Below, piece by piece: positions 6,401-31,795 of a DNA stretch of 64,000 nucleotides (position 1 is its first letter; each line of letters begins with the position of its first letter). The translations under genes and the position numbers were made by a program. The stretch is from assembly GCA_003225295.1 (NCBI GenBank), contig QHYZ01000090.1, forward strand, positions 1 to 64,000, written 5' to 3'. Source of the stretch: Acidobacteriota bacterium (GTDB lineage Bacteria > Acidobacteriota > Terriglobia > Acidiferrales > UBA7541). The notes beneath the pieces are model-generated. The model saw only the letters and a program-made list of their open reading frames with translations. It was not told the DNA's origin and did not search any database.

Positions 6401-8675
6401 CAACCGCCGCTTGGTGATAGAGCGCGGAGTTGCCCGTGCCTTTCAATCGGCTCAGCAGCGCATCCGCTTCTTCCCAGTTGCCCATCCGCGCCAAAAATGG
6501 AACCACGAAGCCAAGCAAATCCGGGGAGCCCTCATGACTCTCCAGTGATTCATGACACGCGGCGAGAGCTCGCTCCGGGTGCCCCCAATCCTCCAGTGCG
6601 TTAATCCACGTGATCCAGGTTCGAAACGCGAGCGAGGATCCGCCGAAAGTCGCGACACGTTTCTCCAGCCACTCCAGCCCTTCTTCCTGCCGTCCTACAT
6701 TTCCAAGTGCATCGCAGTACGCCCGCGCATAATGCTCACTGCTTCCAGCGAGACCTGCTGCGATTCGATATCCCAGAACGGCTCCCTGCAGATCACGCTC
6801 CTCCCACAACAGATCGCCAAGCACATGCCACGCCTGCGCACACGAGCTTTCTCTTGCAATCACGCCATGCAGCAGCGTGCGCGCCTGCTCTCGCGTTTCG
6901 GCGGAAGCACGCAACATATCGGCGTACTCGCTTACGTACGCACCCGGCGGGTATAACCAGGTTTGCTGCGACTGAATCCCCGGCAGTATTCCCCTTTCCA
7001 CAACGCTGGCAAGCGTCCGGCGCATCAGTGCCGCGTCTCCCAGTAAGCGGCAACAACCTAAGAGCCTGGCACGGACGAATGCCGATCCCGGAAACTGATT
7101 CATCAAGTCCTGAAATTCAACCAGTGCCGTGCCCACTCTTCCATCTTCAACCGCTTGCATGGCCTTCAACAGTCTGGTGCTGGGGTGTGCCGGCTGTCGT
7201 TCTGCCAGCTTCTCAACCACTTTCCGTCCAGCCGCGGGTCCGCCTAACACGATTGCTCGATGGTGAGCAGTTCGAGCCGCTACCGCTTCTGCATCCTCCC
7301 TTGGCAACAACTCTTCCAGCAGCGCCACCTTGTTGCTCGGCACCGTGGCCATGCCTCGCGGGCCTAGCGGCGTCTCATTCTTTCCAATGCTTTCCAGCAA
7401 ATACTGAGTTGTACGCAGCGCGGTGGGATCGTGAATGATCAGCGTGCCCGCTGCTTCGTCCAATCCGACCACTGCCACAGCGTGTGCACTGGCATCCGAT
7501 TCCAGCGTTACCACAAACGCGATGCCGTTCTTGATCAGGCGGCTGGCAATTTCCGGTCCTACGGGAAAAGACCTGACAGTTAGTCCTTTCTTTTCGAGCC
7601 ATTCTGCCGCGGCCCATTCCGCTGTTCCTCCAAATGTGATTTCCGCCGCCATGGCCTCGGCATCCACCGGCGTGCCCATCGCCGCAAGGGCTGATGCGAC
7701 ACTGGTCGGCAAACACTCATCATGTTTTTGGATGGCGCGGTGAAACGGCATTCGAATGCGCAGCCCATGCGGGTTCTTGTGCAGATTCTCTAGCACTTTG
7801 CGATGAAACGGAGAGCGCACCTCGTTAGCCCAACGCTCCATGGCCGCACGATCGTCTCTGAGCTCGGCGATATCCAACCGGCCTAGCGCGAACCACGCTC
7901 GCGTCTCGCGGTCCGCCAGTGGTGCTAACTTCGATGCTTGCTCGGCAAGTTCCTCAGCTCTTTGCAATGTTCGGCCGCGCTCCTCGCCCTCCACGATCTC
8001 CGCCAGCGTGCACACGTGCCAGCACGTCAGCTGCGCCACCTCGAACGACTCGCATCCTTGCGCTGCACAGGACAATCGCTCGGCTGCCTCTCGAATTCGC
8101 CGCAGATTCAATAAGCTATTGCCAAGGCTATGCGCCCCGTACGGTGTGCCCGGGTTCATCTCCCAGGAAATCTCTGCGGACTTCAGCGCCTCGTCCCACC
8201 GGTCTTCCAGTCCAAATACATCCGATTCGCAGCTGAATACCCAACTCTCCTTGGTTTCCAGCGACTTGGCGCGCTCAATGCATGCGTGTGCTCGTCGAAA
8301 GTCCCGGAATGACGCCCAAGTTACGGCTTGTGAGGCTAGCCAACTCGCTTGCGTATTGACGTCTGCGTCTGGCAGTTCCGGCTGCACTTCCCAGCTTCGC
8401 AGGTCATCGAACAACTTCCACCCTCGTCGCCGTAGCCCCCACGTGAAGTACCGCACCCGTGCATTCGACGGATCTCGGGCCAATGCCGTTCGAAATAAAC
8501 GGCGAGACAGTCGCCGCCCTCCCAGGCGCACCGCCAGCCTCCCTCCAAAAATTAATTCATCTGCAGAGAGTTGCTCTAATCGTTGGGAAGGCTTCCAGGA
8601 TTCCATGCTTTGGCGGAACGCCTCTAAGAACCGGTTCTGGTCATAGAAGCTTTGAAGTCCCTCAAGGGAGATCAT
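3480..8675 (-). CDS. Giant TPR protein with embedded C39-like peptidase domain
   Basis: A protein of about 1730 residues. Residues 1-300 and about 480-1640 are helical tetratricopeptide-like repeats with recurring A-x3-L/Y-x6-P spacing. Around 310-470 sits a C39-like papain-fold peptidase domain: the Cys in KHDECLPTSVASAL, the His in SAHAVAVVGLDE and the Asp in IIHDPT are in the right order for a catalytic triad. The last 20 residues (MRWWWIIWVLFLLWRLIF) form a single membrane helix, so the protein would be tail-anchored with the bulk in the cytoplasm. A TTG start at 8708 is possible; the ATG at 8675 is preferred. C39 domains typically process Gly-Gly leader peptides, but no substrate gene is visible nearby. 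Confidence 0.8.
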   Translation of the reverse strand: MISLEGLQSFYDQNRFLEAFRQSMESWKPSQRLEQLSADELIFGGRLAVRLGGRRLSRRLFRTALARDPSNARVRYFTWGLRRRGWKLFDDLRSWEVQPELPDADVNTQASWLASQAVTWASFRDFRRAHACIERAKSLETKESWVFSCESDVFGLEDRWDEALKSAEISWEMNPGTPYGAHSLGNSLLNLRRIREAAERLSCAAQGCESFEVAQLTCWHVCTLAEIVEGEERGRTLQRAEELAEQASKLAPLADRETRAWFALGRLDIAELRDDRAAMERWANEVRSPFHRKVLENLHKNPHGLRIRMPFHRAIQKHDECLPTSVASALAAMGTPVDAEAMAAEITFGGTAEWAAAEWLEKKGLTVRSFPVGPEIASRLIKNGIAFVVTLESDASAHAVAVVGLDEAAGTLIIHDPTALRTTQYLLESIGKNETPLGPRGMATVPSNKVALLEELLPREDAEAVAARTAHHRAIVLGGPAAGRKVVEKLAERQPAHPSTRLLKAMQAVEDGRVGTALVEFQDLMNQFPGSAFVRARLLGCCRLLGDAALMRRTLASVVERGILPGIQSQQTWLYPPGAYVSEYADMLRASAETREQARTLLHGVIARESSCAQAWHVLGDLLWEERDLQGAVLGYRIAAGLAGSSEHYARAYCDALGNVGRQEEGLEWLEKRVATFGGSSLAFRTWITWINALEDWGHPERALAACHESLESHEGSPDLLGFVVPFLARMGNWEEADALLSRLKGTGNSALYHQAAVDFHGRKGELSRALNHAETWVQESPLSMEARRELLRLVVKRDGTEAALELAGRWFAEHPGHDDLEQLYSQYLEQASAPLWKRYAVLLRRVQRNPEDGWAWRQIVFNCIADYESKDEQGREKLKRRLPGLIGECERTAPEDAATMRVRAQWCEVRGKWDEAIDHWMSSIKLEPHSMYSYRHVWECLARSSAEQRRDLWQELSTMLMSYAGRLDAVRETIMLVARRFGVVEAEGAVSAWKGLRPDDPEVTEAYADLLLEQGHGRTDAQRALELLQPAVEKFPYHLGLRFSLAGAQRKLGKFKEAEEVLAEIIRRHPENSPAQIQLARVHERHGRIDEALKTLASAASGDPQNVDIPDVQARILIAAGRHKEARAMVDEATVKFPRSVPWRERAIRLYADCADNAAAVGVAREGIVVYPRGAYLWFLLGRTLSEMGHFAGQGEVESCLRRSLELNEGLFVAADWLAMLLVEQRRYDEAEEVMRRIWERLSDPSPAMGRLAWIHRAKGEKKEARGEMVALLGEMPWYSWGWGVLIEWFTEDESWEQARSVLGAVRPELRTNTQFRRQRLVVLEKAGLPAAELDLEWSSLLQDFPEEVALHLHRYDSLRNAKRLAEAACVLELIRPIDPESPYVLARFAEVLANDATRKEQAVEAVLRVMFQEGEVSRWPADYAWKAVESAKLEEAAYQKACERLGQGTRPTLGALSILASYAVARGKAEKRVLQPYWRTWLPDRGARELVKLQKMVDAADWPKERYRACLMKELSDAGYARLVARYWKNNKAQVEADVDAWAETARALVVLKRKGEARTLLARWRERSGVAMWAVANYVNCLTGLRAKQLGEVHSACHDALTGLPHDHCAKYLVHRQAEACALLGDEKGLLETWNEYRNYFNGQLEKAEWFEPRRRYLLADLVILARSMEENNRKMYKKMLRSLWWKRAAEKLRFTNTTKTSGKKMSMRWWWIIWVLFLLWRLIFQHP

Positions 8676-25660: not shown

Positions 25661-26485
25661 TCAGAGGGTCTGAAATCTTTCTTTCACTTCTCTCACGAAC
25701 TCCAGGAACTTCGGTGAGTTCGTGAGTTCCGGATGCCAGCACATGTCGCGCTCAATGAGGTCATAGGTTTCCTGAATCCGCGCACCGGGGAGGGCCATTC
25801 CGTTGGCCTGGCGATCCCGTCCCATGAGCCACAAGTGATCCGCTACCGTGGCAGCCGCGGTCACGTCGTGGGTGACAACAATGATGGTGTTCAGTTCGTC
25901 CAAGCAGGCAATCTCATTGATCAATTCGCAGACCTTCGCTTCCATCACCACATCGAGGCCGGAGAACGGCTCATCCATCAGCAAGAAATGTTCGCTGCAC
26001 AGAAGCTGCTGCGCGATGGCCACGCGCTGCCGCTGGCCACCGGAAATCTGCGCCGGATAAAGTTGCGACTGGTCCACCATATCCAGCCGCCGGAGGTACT
26101 TCAGCACCCGTTCATGCGCGGCTTCGTGACCCTTTTCCATTTGCTTGGCGGCCAGCATCAGGTTGCTGAAAATCGTGCGGTTTTCGAACAATGGATAATT
26201 CTGCGCGACGACACCTACCATCCCGGCTTTGACCGGGGTCAGCCCGGAATTGACCAGCACCTGGCCCGAAGTGGGGTGATTCAGACCGGCGATGATTCGA
26301 AAGAGCTGTGTCTTGCCGATCCCCGAAGGTCCGAGGAAGCCCACTACCTGGCCTTGCGTGCGGCCCTCGCGCACGATGTCGCGAATTTCCGCGTTCACAT
26401 CCCGAAGGATAACCTTGTCTTCGTAAGAAAGACTGACGTGATCAATCTTAAGAAGCGTTTCGCCGTAGGTGCAGCGCTCGGGCAC
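25661..26485 (-). CDS. ABC transporter ATPase (NitT/TauT-like)
   Basis: About 274 residues. Walker A is GFLGPSGIGKTQLFRII, the Q-loop is VGVVAQNYPLF, the signature SGGQRQRVAIAQQLL, Walker B FLLMDEPFSGLD, and the switch His is in IIVVTHDVTAA. The Walker A Ile in GPSGIGKT and a late insertion IVREGRTQ near residue 40 are slight deviations. The GTG at 26485 is preferred: GGAGG precedes it by eight bases, whereas the longer frame overlaps the permease gene. It is the last gene of a five-gene operon and should energise the adjacent permease. The family resembles nitrate/sulfonate/taurine importers; the substrate is unknown. Confidence 0.88.
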   Translation of the reverse strand: MPERCTYGETLLKIDHVSLSYEDKVILRDVNAEIRDIVREGRTQGQVVGFLGPSGIGKTQLFRIIAGLNHPTSGQVLVNSGLTPVKAGMVGVVAQNYPLFENRTIFSNLMLAAKQMEKGHEAAHERVLKYLRRLDMVDQSQLYPAQISGGQRQRVAIAQQLLCSEHFLLMDEPFSGLDVVMEAKVCELINEIACLDELNTIIVVTHDVTAAATVADHLWLMGRDRQANGMALPGARIQETYDLIERDMCWHPELTNSPKFLEFVREVKERFQTL

Positions 26486-26513
26486 GGGTGGTCCTCCGCA
26501 GATCCATGAGTTA

Positions 26514-27392
26514 CTATCTTTTTTCAAGCTGCAAATCGGCGTAGGGGAACAAAAATTTCTTGGCCAACCCCAGCGCGTAATCCTGGAACAATCCAATCAA
26601 CAGAATTGCGATTTGAATCGCAAACACGGCCTCCAGACGGAAGTGCTTGTTCTGATTCAGCAACAACGCCCCGATCCCACCCTCGGACCGCGAGATACCC
26701 TCGACCATGGTGAGCATCATCCAACCCATGGCCGCGTTCTGACGCATGGCATCGAAAGCCGCGTCGGCTTTACCGAGCACAATCACTTCCCAGACGACGC
26801 GCCACTCGCCCATGCGCAGCGTGCGTGCCAGGTCAAACTTTTCTTTGGCGATTTGCGCGACCACGTCGATCATGCTGGTCACAAAAAAAACCGCCACACC
26901 AAAAACTAACAAGCTTACTTTCAGCCGGTGTCCGCTGGAAAAAATGATAGTGAAAAAGAACGTGAGTCCCACCATTCCGAGGAAACGACCCTTGGAAATG
27001 GCCAGCACGATCGGCTGGAACACGGGAACCACGGTGAGGTAAGCAAGCCCCAGCGAAATGACCGTCGCCCAGGCCATGGCCTGCACATTCAACAGGAAAC
27101 TGACGATCAGTTCTTGGCCCAGTCCCTGGTGAGTCCAGAGGTCCACGAAGGCCCGCCACACATCCATTGGTTTCGGCAGGAAAACATAGGTCGAAGTCGC
27201 CCAGACCACCAGCAGCACGGCAATCTGGAACGCTATGATGAAACGCAGTGCCGCCTTGGAAATCACCCGGTTGGGGGAAAACGCGCCGAGAATCTCGTGC
27301 CAAAAGCTGCCACCGCCGGCTGTGGCCATGTGATTTGCGGCCGCCGTTGTGCTCGTTCCCATCGCTCCGGCCGCCGGTTTCATGGGACTCAC
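26514..27392 (-). CDS. ABC transporter permease (NitT/TauT-like)
   Basis: A 292-residue membrane protein. After a 30-residue Gly/Ala-rich cytoplasmic lead, about six membrane helices follow (RFIIAFQIAVLLVVWATSTY; VISLGLAYLTVVPVFQPIVL; GMVGLTFFFTIIFSS; VSLLVFGVAVFFVTSMIDVV; AVFAIQIAILLIGLFQ). The coupling-helix region near 190-220 (RVVWEVIVLGKADAAFDAMR) is the EAA-like loop that contacts the ATPase. The arrangement LPKPMDVWRAFVDLW before helix 2 is typical of the SsuC/TauC group. It lies 9 bases after the OmpA-fused binding protein gene and 28 bases before the ATPase gene. Confidence 0.85.
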   Translation of the reverse strand: MSPMKPAAGAMGTSTTAAANHMATAGGGSFWHEILGAFSPNRVISKAALRFIIAFQIAVLLVVWATSTYVFLPKPMDVWRAFVDLWTHQGLGQELIVSFLLNVQAMAWATVISLGLAYLTVVPVFQPIVLAISKGRFLGMVGLTFFFTIIFSSGHRLKVSLLVFGVAVFFVTSMIDVVAQIAKEKFDLARTLRMGEWRVVWEVIVLGKADAAFDAMRQNAAMGWMMLTMVEGISRSEGGIGALLLNQNKHFRLEAVFAIQIAILLIGLFQDYALGLAKKFLFPYADLQLEKR

Positions 27393-27401
27393 GTGGGTTT
27401 C

Positions 27402-29249
27402 CTATTCCTTGCCCGACAGAATGATTTCCACGCGGCGGTTTCTGGCGCGGCCATCCGCGGTGGCATTGGAGGCCAGCGGCTTGGAATCGCCATAGGCGTG
27501 AATTCGAAAACGGTTGTCGGGAAAGTTCGCGGGAGCTTTTCTCTGCAGCCAATCTCTCACTGCCTGGGCACGCCGCTCCGCCAAATCCATGTTTGCTTCG
27601 CGGGTCCCGGTATTGTCGGTGTGTCCATTCAAAGTGACGAACAATGCGCCGGCAATCGCCAGGTCGTCCTTGATCTCGTACATCTTGCGTTCGCCGTCCG
27701 CGGTGAACGAGGCCTTCCCCGTGTCGAACTCGATGCTCCAGTCGCGTTTCGAAACGACCGTGCCGGTGTCACCGCTCGAAGTGAAGCTGGCGACATCGGC
27801 TTCCGCACCGCTCTGCGAGAGCATGGAAGACGCTCCGAGAACATAAGAAGTATCGAGAATTTCCTTCACGTCGGGAATCTTGTTGGCGTCCTTGAACAAT
27901 TCCGGGTATTGCTGTGTCGCAATATTTCCGAACACCGTGTAGGTGGAGCGGAAATTGTTATTGGCCCCGGGCTGCAATCCGAACAGCAGCAGATTGTCGT
28001 TCAGATTGTTGACGGCAGAACCACCGAGCTCCACCATGTTGCCGGTTTTATCCTGTTCGCGCGTTCCCAGATAATACTTCAGCCAGTAGTCGCCGTTCTG
28101 CTCGTTGTACACTTTGGCGCTGATCGCCGCCGCACGCTTGAGCGCCTCTGGGTAGGCTTTGAGTTGATCTGCTGCTTCAAAGCTGGCTGCCAGCATTCCC
28201 TGAACTTCGTTGCGATGGTCCTGGTTGAACTTCTTGATGCCAATAATGACGTCCGGCATCTGCGAGCGGTACTGCTTCGAAGAGACGATGGACACCAGTC
28301 CCCCGCGGCCATGAGCCACGTTGACGTCGCCCGGCGTCCAGGTGACCACGCCGTTCACGCAGACGTTCTTGGATTCCCCGGTCAGCCGGCCGTCGTGAAC
28401 CACTTTGCGGTCTTCGCAGGTATTGGCGTTATAGATTTCCGCGGCCTTGATGTAGTCCGGGGCATTGACCCAATTGAGAGCTTCGGAGTCCCACGTCTTT
28501 TCGTCCGGATTGTTCTTGATTTGGTTGTCTGCGGCCCACTTCATGGCGATATTCCAATCGCCGTCGCGAAGGACTCCAGCGACCAGCCCGCCCTTGGCCG
28601 CCTGGGGGTCAGACTTCCATTCGGGCGGACCCATCAGCTTGTCTTCCCCGCGCGAGTACCCCGTCGAGCCGATGACCTGGGCGATGTATTCACTGGCGCC
28701 GTTGTCCAGTTTCTTAAGCTGCGGATTGACCGCGGCAAAAAATTGGCCAGAGCCATCGCCCATGATCATTACGTAGTTCGCACCGGAGGAACATTGACTT
28801 GCGCCATCGTGAAGCTCTTTCGCACAGGCAATCAAGTCGTTCTGCATCTGGCTGGTGTCATCCTGGCGGATCAGTTTCACGTTGGCATTGTGTTTTTCCA
28901 TCAGGCTGTTGCGCGTCGTCTCCGGGCCGCCATTGGCGTAGATATAGTTCATTTGTGCGTTCCAGGCCCATAATTCGGTGCGTATCAACGGCGCTTTGAC
29001 GGAGGCCGAAGCCGCTTCCGGGAAAGGCGCTGGTTCGACGTTGGCCACCACTGCTTCTTTCAAGTCCGGCAAAGCGGCTTTCGTCGGAATGAGCGCTTTG
29101 GCAATGCCCGGCGCAGGAATCCAGCCGCGGCTCACCGCCGTGCGGAAACCGAAGAAAAGGACTGCCCCGACAACCAGCAGCAGAATAATCTTCGCTCCCG
29201 GCTTCAACCTGTGCCCTGTCGGTGGTGTGGAGATTTTGTTGTCAAACAT
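27402..29249 (-). CDS. Periplasmic binding protein fused to an OmpA-like wall-binding domain
   Basis: A 615-residue protein. Residues 18-42 are a membrane anchor (KIILLLVVGAVLFFGFRTAV). A solute-binding domain of about 380 residues follows (IRTELWAWNAQMNYIYANGG, GLVAGVLRDGDWNIAMKWAA, IIGIKKFNQDHRNEVQGMLA), of the type annotated as phosphate or NitT/TauT binding. From about 500 comes an OmpA C-terminal domain: SIEFDTGKASFTADGE, LNGHTDNTGTREANMDLAER, YGDSKPLASN and GRARNRRVEI, with the Asp and Arg that hold diaminopimelate of peptidoglycan. The protein would thus be tied to both the inner membrane and the wall while serving the ABC permease encoded next. Four Cys residues occur in the binding domain. 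Confidence 0.85.
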   Translation of the reverse strand: MFDNKISTPPTGHRLKPGAKIILLLVVGAVLFFGFRTAVSRGWIPAPGIAKALIPTKAALPDLKEAVVANVEPAPFPEAASASVKAPLIRTELWAWNAQMNYIYANGGPETTRNSLMEKHNANVKLIRQDDTSQMQNDLIACAKELHDGASQCSSGANYVMIMGDGSGQFFAAVNPQLKKLDNGASEYIAQVIGSTGYSRGEDKLMGPPEWKSDPQAAKGGLVAGVLRDGDWNIAMKWAADNQIKNNPDEKTWDSEALNWVNAPDYIKAAEIYNANTCEDRKVVHDGRLTGESKNVCVNGVVTWTPGDVNVAHGRGGLVSIVSSKQYRSQMPDVIIGIKKFNQDHRNEVQGMLAASFEAADQLKAYPEALKRAAAISAKVYNEQNGDYWLKYYLGTREQDKTGNMVELGGSAVNNLNDNLLLFGLQPGANNNFRSTYTVFGNIATQQYPELFKDANKIPDVKEILDTSYVLGASSMLSQSGAEADVASFTSSGDTGTVVSKRDWSIEFDTGKASFTADGERKMYEIKDDLAIAGALFVTLNGHTDNTGTREANMDLAERRAQAVRDWLQRKAPANFPDNRFRIHAYGDSKPLASNATADGRARNRRVEIILSGKE

Positions 29250-29273
29250 GGTGATCCTTCCTCCGCCTGCTCG

Positions 29274-30305
29274 TCACTTGATCAAATCGCTGTAGTCGTC
29301 TTTCTTGTTCGCGGGCGTAGCCGAAGACTGGTCCAGTACGCCACCCGGCACCGCGGTTACCGATGCGGGCAATAGCTTTTGCTGAAACTCTGACAATTGT
29401 TTGACGGCCTCATCGTTGATGGCCCCGGTTTCCAGGTCCATGTTGGTCATCAGCTTGTTGGCAAGACGATTGAAGTCTTCCATCTCCCCGAGCATCTGCC
29501 CGGCGTCATCTGCCAGGTATTCCAGGGTCTGGTCGTAAATCTGGTTGGCCACCGGATCGCCGCGGAAAATCTTCTTGGCCGCCTGGAACACGGAGTAGGC
29601 CTTTTTCAGCGCCTTCCTCCGCATCTCTTCCTCACTGACGCGGTTCTCCTTGTCGGTGACCTGGAACTCTGCCGTGGCTCGCCAGCGTATGAGTTGGTCG
29701 TAGAGTATCTTCAGCTTGTCGCGCAAGTCGGTGAGCGACTTGTTGATGTTGATCAGGCTCGCGGCGTGGCGCTGGTTGGTGACTTTGGCGGACATGTACT
29801 GCTGCTGATCGAGCGAGGTGAGGCCGCCCGCGGCCATCTTCTTGTCGGCTTGGTTAGCCAGCGCCATGCTGTGCTCGGCATCTTTTTGATTCGCATCGAT
29901 CTGGTTTTGAAGCGTGCGGATCGAGCCATTCAAGTTGCCGAGTTGCTCGTCCATAATCCCGAGATTCTTTTTCATCTCCCCAATGTAGTTCTTCAGGATG
30001 CCAATGGGGTCAAGCTCGATGAACAGGCCGGTCAGAAAGCGCATGACGCTCTGGAAAATGAGCTTCCCCAGAGTCAAAACGCGCTTGTCCGTGACGATGA
30101 AGATCAGCAGCAGAATGGCCCCGATCAGAATCGCGAGGTGCAACGTATCGGTCGCCGCGGCGATCAAGAACGGGAGAATCTGCACGAATCCATACGCTGC
30201 CGCGATGCCGCCGAGGACCAGCACGACTTTCCCGACGGTTCCTTCCGGCCGCTGCCAGAAATTCTTCAAGCCCTGCATTACCGGGGAACCCGAATTGGTT
30301 GCCAT
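29274..30305 (-). CDS. Membrane-anchored coiled-coil protein of the ABC/OmpA operon
   Basis: A 343-residue protein with two membrane segments near 25-75 (VGKVVLVLGGIAAAYGFVQI; LHLAILIGAILLLIFIVTD). A long helical, coiled-coil region follows (GIMDEQLGNLNGSIRTLQNQ, then SLININKSLTDLRDKLKILY), and a helical C-terminal part ends in a flexible tail (SATPANKKDDYSDLIK). No enzyme motif is seen. The shape recalls membrane-linked scaffold proteins. Its position, 24 bases before the binding-protein fusion and 9 bases after another coiled-coil gene, shows it belongs to the transporter operon. It could form a scaffold or gate around the importer; this is inference. Confidence 0.75.
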   Translation of the reverse strand: MATNSGSPVMQGLKNFWQRPEGTVGKVVLVLGGIAAAYGFVQILPFLIAAATDTLHLAILIGAILLLIFIVTDKRVLTLGKLIFQSVMRFLTGLFIELDPIGILKNYIGEMKKNLGIMDEQLGNLNGSIRTLQNQIDANQKDAEHSMALANQADKKMAAGGLTSLDQQQYMSAKVTNQRHAASLININKSLTDLRDKLKILYDQLIRWRATAEFQVTDKENRVSEEEMRRKALKKAYSVFQAAKKIFRGDPVANQIYDQTLEYLADDAGQMLGEMEDFNRLANKLMTNMDLETGAINDEAVKQLSEFQQKLLPASVTAVPGGVLDQSSATPANKKDDYSDLIK

Positions 30306-30314
30306 GGCGTCTCC

Positions 30315-30941
30315 CTATCCCAAAATCGTTTCAAATTCCTTGCGTTGCTGGTGAATCTCGGCGCGCCGCCGTTCCAGCGCCGCCGCAAAACTGCTCTTGG
30401 CCTCCTGCAGTTTCGCGCGCGATGCCTCGGTCTGCGATTGCATGGATTTCACCTGCTGCTCGAAGTCGGTGATCTCTTTCTGTTTTTGCTGAATGGCTTC
30501 ATTGAGGTCGCTGATTTTGGCAATCTTGGCATCGACTTCGGTTCGCGACACGTCGTCGGTTTGTTTGTTAAACGTGCTCGCCGAGGAATTCAGAACACCC
30601 AGCAAAGCGTCAAAACCTTTCAAAATCGCCTCTTTGGTCAAGCCACCCTGCGACTGCGCGGTGGCCAGGGCCGCCTTGTACCTCAAGGCCTTGTCCGTGA
30701 TGACCGCCGCGAGTGGTGCCGCAAAGGCCTCGATCTTGGCCAGCTCCGGAACGGCGGAGAGTTCCGTCTGCTTGGCCAGCCGCGTGTAGAACTGGTTGTC
30801 GCGCGTGCCCGCGGGGACATAGGCAGGAGCCGGGTCGAGAGGCCGCGGCGCCGCTGGGCTGGGCGCGGGCTTGGCGGGCGGCTGCCCCGCCTGCGGCTCC
30901 TCTTCAAAAATCGCTTTCTTGATCAGGTCCATGAACGGCAT
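30315..30941 (-). CDS. Cytoplasmic coiled-coil protein heading the ABC/OmpA operon
   Basis: A 208-residue protein. The first 50 residues are Pro/Ala-rich (EEEPQAGQPPAKPAPSPAAP) after a short amphipathic start (PFMDLIKKAIFEEE) that could touch a membrane or a partner. A helical middle (ELAKIEAFAAPLAAVITDKA) leads to a strong coiled coil from about 130 to the end (AIQQKQKEITDFEQQVKSMQ, AKLQEAKSSFAAALERRRAE). No signal peptide is present. It resembles PspA/ESCRT-like helical proteins only in general shape; no family is claimed. AAGGA lies eight bases before the ATG. As first gene of the operon it is likely cotranscribed with the transporter. Confidence 0.75.
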   Translation of the reverse strand: MPFMDLIKKAIFEEEPQAGQPPAKPAPSPAAPRPLDPAPAYVPAGTRDNQFYTRLAKQTELSAVPELAKIEAFAAPLAAVITDKALRYKAALATAQSQGGLTKEAILKGFDALLGVLNSSASTFNKQTDDVSRTEVDAKIAKISDLNEAIQQKQKEITDFEQQVKSMQSQTEASRAKLQEAKSSFAAALERRRAEIHQQRKEFETILG

Positions 30942-31330
30942 GTGTCACGTCCTTCAGGCTTCCGTCCCAGGGTGCCACTGGCTTCGAGAACGCGGCCGGA
31001 AAGCACGCCAGTCCTCACCCTTTTCGAGGCCCAGCACGACCGGACCTGCAGTACCAAATCGGTCCACCATCCGCGCGCATTGTATCCTATAGATAAGCGA
31101 ACTCTGCTGTTGTACTTGGGATATGCGGCCATCGTAGACCGTGCCTGCTTGCTTTTTCAATAAGGAAATTGCCGCCGTATCACATTCCATAAACCGGCAA
31201 TCTCCCGGGCCTCCAATGCCCTCATTAAACCGCCTATAGGGAAAGCATGCAATTCAGCTACAATCGACACTTTCCCGGTTCAAAATGATGCCGTTTTTGA
31301 ACTGACAAACTTTCGACGAGGGACTAGCCT
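30942..31330. other. Divergent control region
   Basis: Holds the promoters of the ABC/OmpA operon (minus) and the CII-like regulator gene (plus). The clear element is the palindrome at 31278-31302. A minus-strand TACAAT near 31080 may be a -10 box. Confidence 0.55.
31278..31302. promoter_or_regulatory. Palindromic operator before the CII-like regulator
   Basis: GTTCAAAA at 31278-31285, nine bases, then the exact complement TTTTGAAC at 31295-31302. It lies 28 bases before the GTG start of the regulator and about 340 bases upstream of the ABC/OmpA operon. Confidence 0.7.
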
Positions 31331-31795
31331 GTGGCTGCCAGGACGCTAGCCGCGGTATTGAGCCAGGTTGTCGAGGCCAGAGCCGAATACGACACCCGGC
31401 TCCTGGCCCAGCAGCTGGGAACGAACTACCGCTCGCTGATGTATTGGCTGAGAGGCGACCGCCCCATCCCTGCGGACCTGCTGCCGCGAATTTGCGTGCT
31501 CTTGAAGAACTTCGAACCTCTGGATGTTCTCGAATCACAGGCAGGAAGAGTGGCGTTCAAGATTCCAGATCCGCGGCAGACCAGTGAAAAAGAGTTTTTG
31601 GTTATTTCCAACCTTATGAAAGATGTGGGCGCGGCGCTGGAGAGCATCGCCAATACGCTAGCCGATGGGGTGGTGGACGAACACGAATTGAATAATACCA
31701 TCCCCAAACTGGAGGCCGTCATTCGGGAATGCGCCTCTGTGAAATACCTGTTGGAAACTCTGTACAAGAATAGAAAGAGAAAGACCACCAGGTAG
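31331..31795 (+). CDS. Phage CII/CP76-like regulatory protein
   Basis: A 154-residue protein. Residues 20-55 (TRLLAQQLGTNYRSLMYWLR, GDRPIPADLLPRICVLLKNF) form a Cro/CI-like helix-turn-helix, as in the phage regulatory protein CII (CP76) family. The C-terminal half is helical (EFLVISNLMKDVGAALESIA, NTLADGVVDEHELNNTIPKL, LETLYKNRKRK) and probably dimerises. In phages, relatives control lysogeny; here no other phage gene is visible, so the gene has been domesticated or belongs to a wider regulator class. It starts with GTG and lacks a strong ribosome-binding site. The palindrome upstream suggests autoregulation, and the divergent ABC/OmpA operon is a possible second target. Confidence 0.72.
   Translation: MAARTLAAVLSQVVEARAEYDTRLLAQQLGTNYRSLMYWLRGDRPIPADLLPRICVLLKNFEPLDVLESQAGRVAFKIPDPRQTSEKEFLVISNLMKDVGAALESIANTLADGVVDEHELNNTIPKLEAVIRECASVKYLLETLYKNRKRKTTR

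Follow-up and report, generated by a model that had tools for sequence, protein, structure and literature searches.

A five-gene operon of huge-phage type on an acidobacterial chromosome may encode a wall-tethered importer with a PspA-like partner

We analysed a 64,000-nucleotide stretch from an Acidobacteriota bacterium (assembly GCA_003225295.1, contig QHYZ01000090.1, positions 1 to 64,000; hereafter the window) in which five close-packed open reading frames (ORFs) occupy positions 25661-30941 of the minus strand and encode, in this order, two coiled-coil proteins (cc1 and cc2), a binding protein with an OmpA domain (SBP-OmpA, or SBP), an ABC permease and an ABC ATPase. Our preferred reading is that these genes specify a single envelope complex of a type found in huge phages, in which a PspA-like scaffold carries a wall-tethered importer, and that they now reside on an acidobacterial chromosome. 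Taken as a whole, we hold this statement at slightly under even confidence, a level that is set mostly by its functional part.

All five genes recur in identical order at 33 of 42 loci from IMG/VR, 15 of 49 from bacteria and 3 of 4 from named phages (LR756500, LR756501 of 735 kb and the Lak megaphage Lak-A1), and the misses in these counts include loci that end at a contig edge. An earlier note on this DNA, made from its letters alone, had proposed an importer operon with two coiled-coil partners and asked whether these partners are conserved next to the transporter genes elsewhere; the objection that they are not fails because the coiled-coil genes are kept beside the transporter genes, and an ordinary importer with chance neighbours is ruled out by the conserved order of all five genes.

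The trees place the window's copy among viral ones. In a quick SBP tree of 90 rows (proteins of at least 480 aa), the window's clade (gp2) and a second acidobacterial clade (gp1) fell inside a clade of 22 rows, 13 of them viral (SH-aLRT 100), and the 37 other bacterial rows stood apart, forming a set of 38 (97) together with a single viral row, locus L069. A single all-bacterial SBP clade was rejected (log-likelihood 286 lower, p-AU 1.6e-76) on 55 of the 90 rows; the 35 rows left out of this approximately unbiased (AU) test included L069, which is the viral row within the bacterial clade, as well as the long named-phage rows. The permease tree, built from proteins of 230-330 aa and without 33 named loci, grouped both acidobacterial clades with the viral rows seen beside them in the SBP tree (support 90), and the cc2 tree, which left out L008, L009 and L011, agreed with a 17-row set containing 9 viral rows (98) and rejected gp1 and gp2 as one clade (p-AU 0.00045). 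Both AU-tested groups were chosen after the first tree had been seen. Judging from these sequences, the closest copies outside the window's own lineage and gp1 lie in phage contigs, and two entries from phage, in a direction that we infer, would be the simplest reading.

Layout and products of the operon

The five ORFs lie on the minus strand at the position given in the earlier note (Table 1), and its outline of their products held up as well. Hydropathy predicts no transmembrane (TM) segment in cc1, two near the N terminus of cc2 and one at residues 21-39 of SBP; a cytoplasmic and a two-TM coiled-coil protein precede SBP, and a binding protein of NitT/TauT type would be anchored to membrane and wall by its TM helix and its OmpA domain. 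Gaps of 9, 24 and 9 nt separate cc1 from cc2, cc2 from SBP and SBP from the permease; the permease-ATPase gap is 28 nt if the ATPase start is taken as the GTG of 26485, giving 274 aa as in locus L012, and not as the upstream TTG of 26596.

Table 1. Coordinates of the operon genes and of the adjoining upstream features in the window.
Feature	Position	Strand	Description
cc1	30315..30941	-	208 aa; cytoplasmic coiled coil, first gene of the operon; ORF without TM segment
cc2	29274..30305	-	343 aa; two-TM coiled coil, putatively PspA/Vipp1-related
SBP-OmpA	27402..29249	-	615 aa; N-terminal TM anchor, TauA/NrtA-type domain at ~83-475, OmpA domain at ~500-612
ABC permease	26514..27392	-	292 aa; start codon uncertain
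ABC ATPase	25661..26485	-	274 aa from GTG; ORF open from TTG at 26596
Divergent intergenic region	30942..31330	.	Conserved in carriers within the genus
CP76/CII-like regulator	31331..31795	+	PF06892, E 2e-8; divergent from the operon; putative DNA binding, from family

The OmpA family PF00691 spans SBP residues 508-605 (E 6.8e-18), and the remainder of the protein has no Pfam match at E 1. An AlphaFold model built from a 49-row alignment (pLDDT 87, pTM 0.83) superimposes on TauA with Z 27.4 and rmsd 3.0 over 289 residues, followed by CmpA (Z 25.1), NrtA (23.9) and SsuA (23.0), so that its nearest structures are taurine, bicarbonate, nitrate and sulfonate binders; by this model, SBP is a type II binding protein of the TauA/NrtA fold. 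Its OmpA domain matches 7rjj with Z 18.2, and the stretch at ~477-497 between binding fold and OmpA domain has neither helix nor strand in the model. The OmpA residues D545 and R560 are invariant in 49 of 49 rows, and when named phages are included (54 rows), R560 remains invariant and D545 is at least 90% conserved. They lie 15 residues apart, presumably as do the Asp and Arg with which Acinetobacter OmpA binds diaminopimelate.

The ATPase matches PF00005 (E 2e-25) and has all four motif patterns looked for, namely Walker A, the signature, Walker B and the H-loop; the first three recur in 41-43 of the 43 viral proteins and 46-47 of the 47 bacterial ones. On sequence grounds, the window's ATPase has the intact motifs of a competent enzyme. 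Together with the TauA match, these kept motifs weaken the earlier suggestion that the set might not be a transporter at all.

For cc2, hhalign comparison of the family with the soluble PspA found at the same operon position in other Acidobacteria scored 79.8 (88.7 in the other direction), compared with 0.2 and 1.0 for reversed controls and 2.6 for the top of 30 column shuffles. The cc2 model (mean pLDDT 70 overall) has a helix at 74-98 followed by a hairpin at 100-158/164-248, and ranks 1-5 of a Foldseek search with it were all Vipp1 (best E 0.0069, none below 0.001). Profile comparison is thus suggestive of a membrane-anchored PspA/Vipp1 relative. Homologues of cc1 were found by iterative hidden Markov model (HMM) search at 76 of 96 loci, the window's own (L001) counted, and the weak members of this family are uncertain because cc1 is a coiled coil. 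An attempt to assign cc1 to a family gave PDB profile matches that were mostly coiled coils, so that no family could be assigned.

Distribution and genomic setting

The cultured phage G carries the parts of the operon in a different order, with the permease as gp243, the ATPase as gp245, a cc1-like protein as gp246 (by HMM only) and SBP-OmpA as gp249/gp250; its gp249 matches NMT1 (E 6.1e-12) in addition to OmpA. Despite the Gram-positive host of phage G, gp249 and gp250 are adjacent SBP-OmpA paralogues (L010, 11854-15059). Between them and the cc1-like gene, gp247 has no Pfam match at 0.01. With gp247 as query it scored 77.4 over 209 columns against PspA, compared with 21.9 in the other direction, and its scores against the cc2 family were 75.4 and 5.8, again by direction; no reversed control exceeded 1.6 and none of 50 shuffles exceeded 5.2. 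It is a probable PspA relative by a score that depends on direction. Homologues of both permease and SBP also occur in 15 Prevotella Lak records.

Scanning 84,980 species genomes for SBP yielded at least 49 loci, and among 199 genomes sampled across the phylum cc2 was found in one, the window's own. Bacterial loci outside gp1 and gp2 belong to Acidobacteriota, Armatimonadota and Myxococcota and often have an extra TM coiled coil or an AAA+ protein: the TM coiled coil c6 occurs at 25 loci, among them the IMG/VR locus L069, and the AAA+ cluster c7 at 11 loci, which are all bacterial and lie outside gp1 and gp2. Other AAA proteins occur in viral flanks (PF00004 in 2 of 83 flank proteins). The armatimonad assembly JAFDWS contains two divergent operon copies (L041 and L060). 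At L095 and L096, a 162-aa frame at 8001-8477 covers the SBP middle only (query residues 163-314), and the other four operon genes were not found there; recoded stops as the cause of the split genes in L093, L095 and L096 were rejected, since reading TAG as Q changed nothing and reading TGA as W failed to restore SBP.

Flanking genes were scanned for 83 of 86 viral-flank and 62 of 79 acidobacterial proteins, and families are reported from the first 25 of 137, 59, 79 and 51. Among the families listed, the viral flanks (10 loci) have tail collar (L002), NAMPT, NAD ligase, DnaB and HNH, and 61 proteins of at least 240 aa from eight 20-kb stretches of L003 and L062, pooled, include portal, tail sheath, tail fibre, DNA polymerase and ribonucleotide reductase. 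The L065 contig encodes a terminase large subunit (Pfam match above cut-off; motifs read by eye). For the nearest relatives, these phage neighbour genes answer in part the concern that bacterial contigs were miscalled viral. As markers, such genes are insensitive: Terminase_6N matched in 8 of 40 records (7 above cut-off), sheath in 3 of 40 (1 above cut-off), and the L065 terminase as query gave 3 of 46, one being its own record and one an acidobacterial genome. Beyond its own record, the best matches of this terminase (L097, 1-1543) lie in the acidobacterial genome of L017 at 46-51% identity, a hint of an acidobacterial host for the L065 phage. On the IMG/VR contig L069 (478,840 bases), SBP and permease group tightly with the armatimonad chromosome copy L060, and gene order is of the bacterial type, c6 included; L069 may be a miscalled contig or a second transfer.

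The window itself looks chromosomal by its flanks. Flank families of gp1 and gp2 are mostly ordinary bacterial among the families listed, and DNA from either flank of the operon in the window finds matches, not all of them long, in 35 of the 36 genomes of the genus, its own included. A clean empty site was not found; among the matches listed, the two flanks did not lie together. The neighbours of the operon in the window are, by Pfam scan, CP76 and aspartokinase. Four gp1 loci (L016, L017, L052 and L056) share clusters c13 and c14, read by eye as radical-SAM and NADP-binding, upstream of cc1, and because these upstream genes are common to all four, the place of the operon seems stable in gp1, unlike in gp2.

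Among related genomes, the operon was present in 5 of 61, all 5 of them among the 36 same-genus genomes (own included). Operon and CP76 form a shared match of ~6.1 kb with 83-85% DNA identity in three genomes, and a fourth match stops in the intergenic region; the carrier sites differ, as CP76 alone matched of ten neighbouring genes tested (0 of 9 others). The stretch 30901-31345 is 77-79% identical in L113, L114 and L115, with a partial 74% match in L116. CP76 adjoins the operon in 4 of 5 carrier genomes of the genus; among the loci collected, it is found in no viral locus and is confined to genomes of this genus. CP76-like regulators also occur at L111 (8228-8692) and L112 (4497-4946), in genus genomes where no operon was found and of which one contig ends there. 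Compared with four genus copies (dS 0.55-1.47), dN/dS of the five operon genes is 0.025-0.16, and that of CP76 is 0.066-0.087 in three genomes; the operon is under purifying selection in the window's genus.

Proposed function and rival explanations

We propose that the five proteins would act together as one complex in which permease and ATPase import a small solute handed over by the tethered SBP, while the PspA-like cc2 could polymerise under the membrane around the transporter, and cc1 may serve as adaptor or regulator. Such a scaffold might stabilise or repair its membrane patch and keep the inner membrane intact, the wall tether would hold the importer in place, and a phage would gain a supplied, non-leaky envelope during long infection. 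Two acidobacterial lineages would then have captured the module, and in at least the window's lineage it appears to be retained, with purifying selection acting on it and a dedicated CII-like regulator beside it. In a wider version, an ESCRT-III-like machine of the envelope, with a wall-tethered importer built into it, would have diversified among huge phages, would repair and feed the host envelope in long infections and would have passed into bacteria in three or more captures (by gp2, by gp1 and by the ancestor of the Armatimonadota, Myxococcota and other acidobacterial operons); this version seems to us somewhat unlikely.

Several results weigh against the preferred reading. The permease resembles known families weakly (PF00528 at E 0.007, below cut-off; NCBIfam SaoP at E 2.8e-10, far below cut-off), and just 28 of the 43 ATPases from viral loci and 38 of the 47 from bacteria show the H-loop pattern. 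cc2 matches PF04012 with E 2e-4 and 21.5 bits, under the cut-off of 33.9, and only 4 of 45 cc2 members match it at 0.01; because of this shortfall, we speak of a PspA relative and not of a PF04012 member. Single named-phage cc2 proteins scored 0.6 (L009) and 4.4 (L011) against PspA by hhalign, a sequence-profile search of the PDB with cc2 returned no PspA, and Vipp1 as its top structural match (Z 12.8) is near the background of other helical chains (Z 11-12). Since unrelated coiled-coil families reached 51.2 over 3 columns (A4-A6; A7-A4 37.2, A6-A4 33.0), the cc2-PspA scores of 80-89 are suggestive and short of proof. A TauC/SsuC root of the permease tree lands among viral rows on outgroup branches of 5 changes per column and is not trusted because these branches are very long. 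The GC content of the operon (57.3%) is like that of the window (59.0%) and therefore gives no sign of recent entry, and most viral labels rest on IMG/VR.

The same data could be read in other ways. Were the operon a plain nutrient importer by which a phage raises uptake of a limiting anion or cofactor precursor, with the partners merely clustering or anchoring it, the closeness of the SBP model to taurine, bicarbonate, nitrate and sulfonate binders and the NMT1 match of gp249 would follow, but cc1, the PspA-like protein and a wall tether that persist across very different phages and phyla would be left unexplained, and we find this unlikely. We give still less credence to superinfection exclusion or defence, in which phages block rivals at the envelope and bacteria captured the device as anti-phage protection. 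The module is phage-borne, patchy in the genus, found as a unit at different sites and flanked by a CII-like regulator; according to the available text, membrane Ter systems of jumbo phages have been proposed for such a role (PMC7824862), and membrane-localised huge-phage proteins may influence infection by other phages (PMC7162821, which refers to its supplement for these proteins). Yet exclusion would not require a complete importer, the families listed for the gp1 and gp2 flanks are mostly of the ordinary bacterial kind described above, and PADLOC found no complete system among the six proteins scanned, neighbour genes lying outside the scan; it gave partial matches only, in which ZorB models hit the OmpA domain, several models including mad3 (E 3.2e-22) hit the ATPase, and PbeC/LmuB hit the coiled coil. 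A force or distance sensor, as the earlier note had envisaged, whose double anchor would gauge how far membrane and wall are apart and gate the ATPase accordingly, would suit the TM anchor and OmpA domain on one protein and the invariant D545 and R560, but nothing in the data measures force and the linker is devoid of helix and strand in the model; we consider it very improbable.

If the preferred reading holds, huge phages, whose genomes are mostly unexplained, would gain a conserved multi-gene envelope machine, parts of which are present even in a cultured phage. It would also connect PspA/ESCRT-III membrane remodelling with an ABC importer and offer what looks like an entire membrane complex passed from phage to host and retained there. 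Phage G and its Lysinibacillus host make the function testable.

Relation to known systems

The NitT/TauT importers TauABC, SsuABC, NrtABCD and CmpABCD have the SBP fold and the ATPase, and probably the permease, in common with the window's set, which differs from them by its OmpA domain, N-terminal anchor and two coiled-coil partners; to our knowledge, ordinary importers of this class have none of these parts. With PspA/Vipp1, the bacterial ESCRT-III proteins, cc2 would share the hairpin and preceding helix, which align, and it has a profile match that stands out from its controls, whereas its two extra TM helices and its score below the Pfam cut-off set it apart. The likeness to Zorya is confined to SBP residues ~530-611, which match ZorB models, and no other Zorya model was matched at E 0.001 among the same six proteins, neighbour genes again lying outside the scan. 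Huge gut Jug phages likewise have a PspA-like protein, but theirs sits beside terD (PMC12363816), and the available text of that paper has no match for transporter, ABC, OmpA or envelope.

Closest are bacterial operons, mentioned in PMC11237479, in which PspA/Snf7 genes accompany an AAA+ protein, an ABC ATPase, a permease and a PBPB-OmpA protein. As far as its main text goes, these share the PBPB-OmpA fusion, permease, ABC ATPase and, presumably, a PspA-family partner with the window's set, but they have an AAA+ protein, whereas the window and phage types lack AAA+ and have no soluble PspA beside the genes; unlike that soluble PspA, cc2 of the window and phage type has its own two TM helices. 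Among our loci, L030 has PspA (PF04012, E 3.3e-15), and L030 and L059 have an AAA+ protein (PF00004, E ~1e-20); we infer, with OGG56892.1 outside the comparison, that the bacterial loci outside gp1 and gp2 represent the operon of PMC11237479. The words "phages", "virus", "huge" and "jumbo" are absent from its main text, and "viral" occurs twice, in a reference and in the legend of the phyletic figure, which has a viral column. A literature search, with supplements and most subscription papers outside its scope, gave no account of the operon in phages. What is apparently new here is the AAA+-less form of this operon in huge phages, with the window's copy nested among the phage copies.

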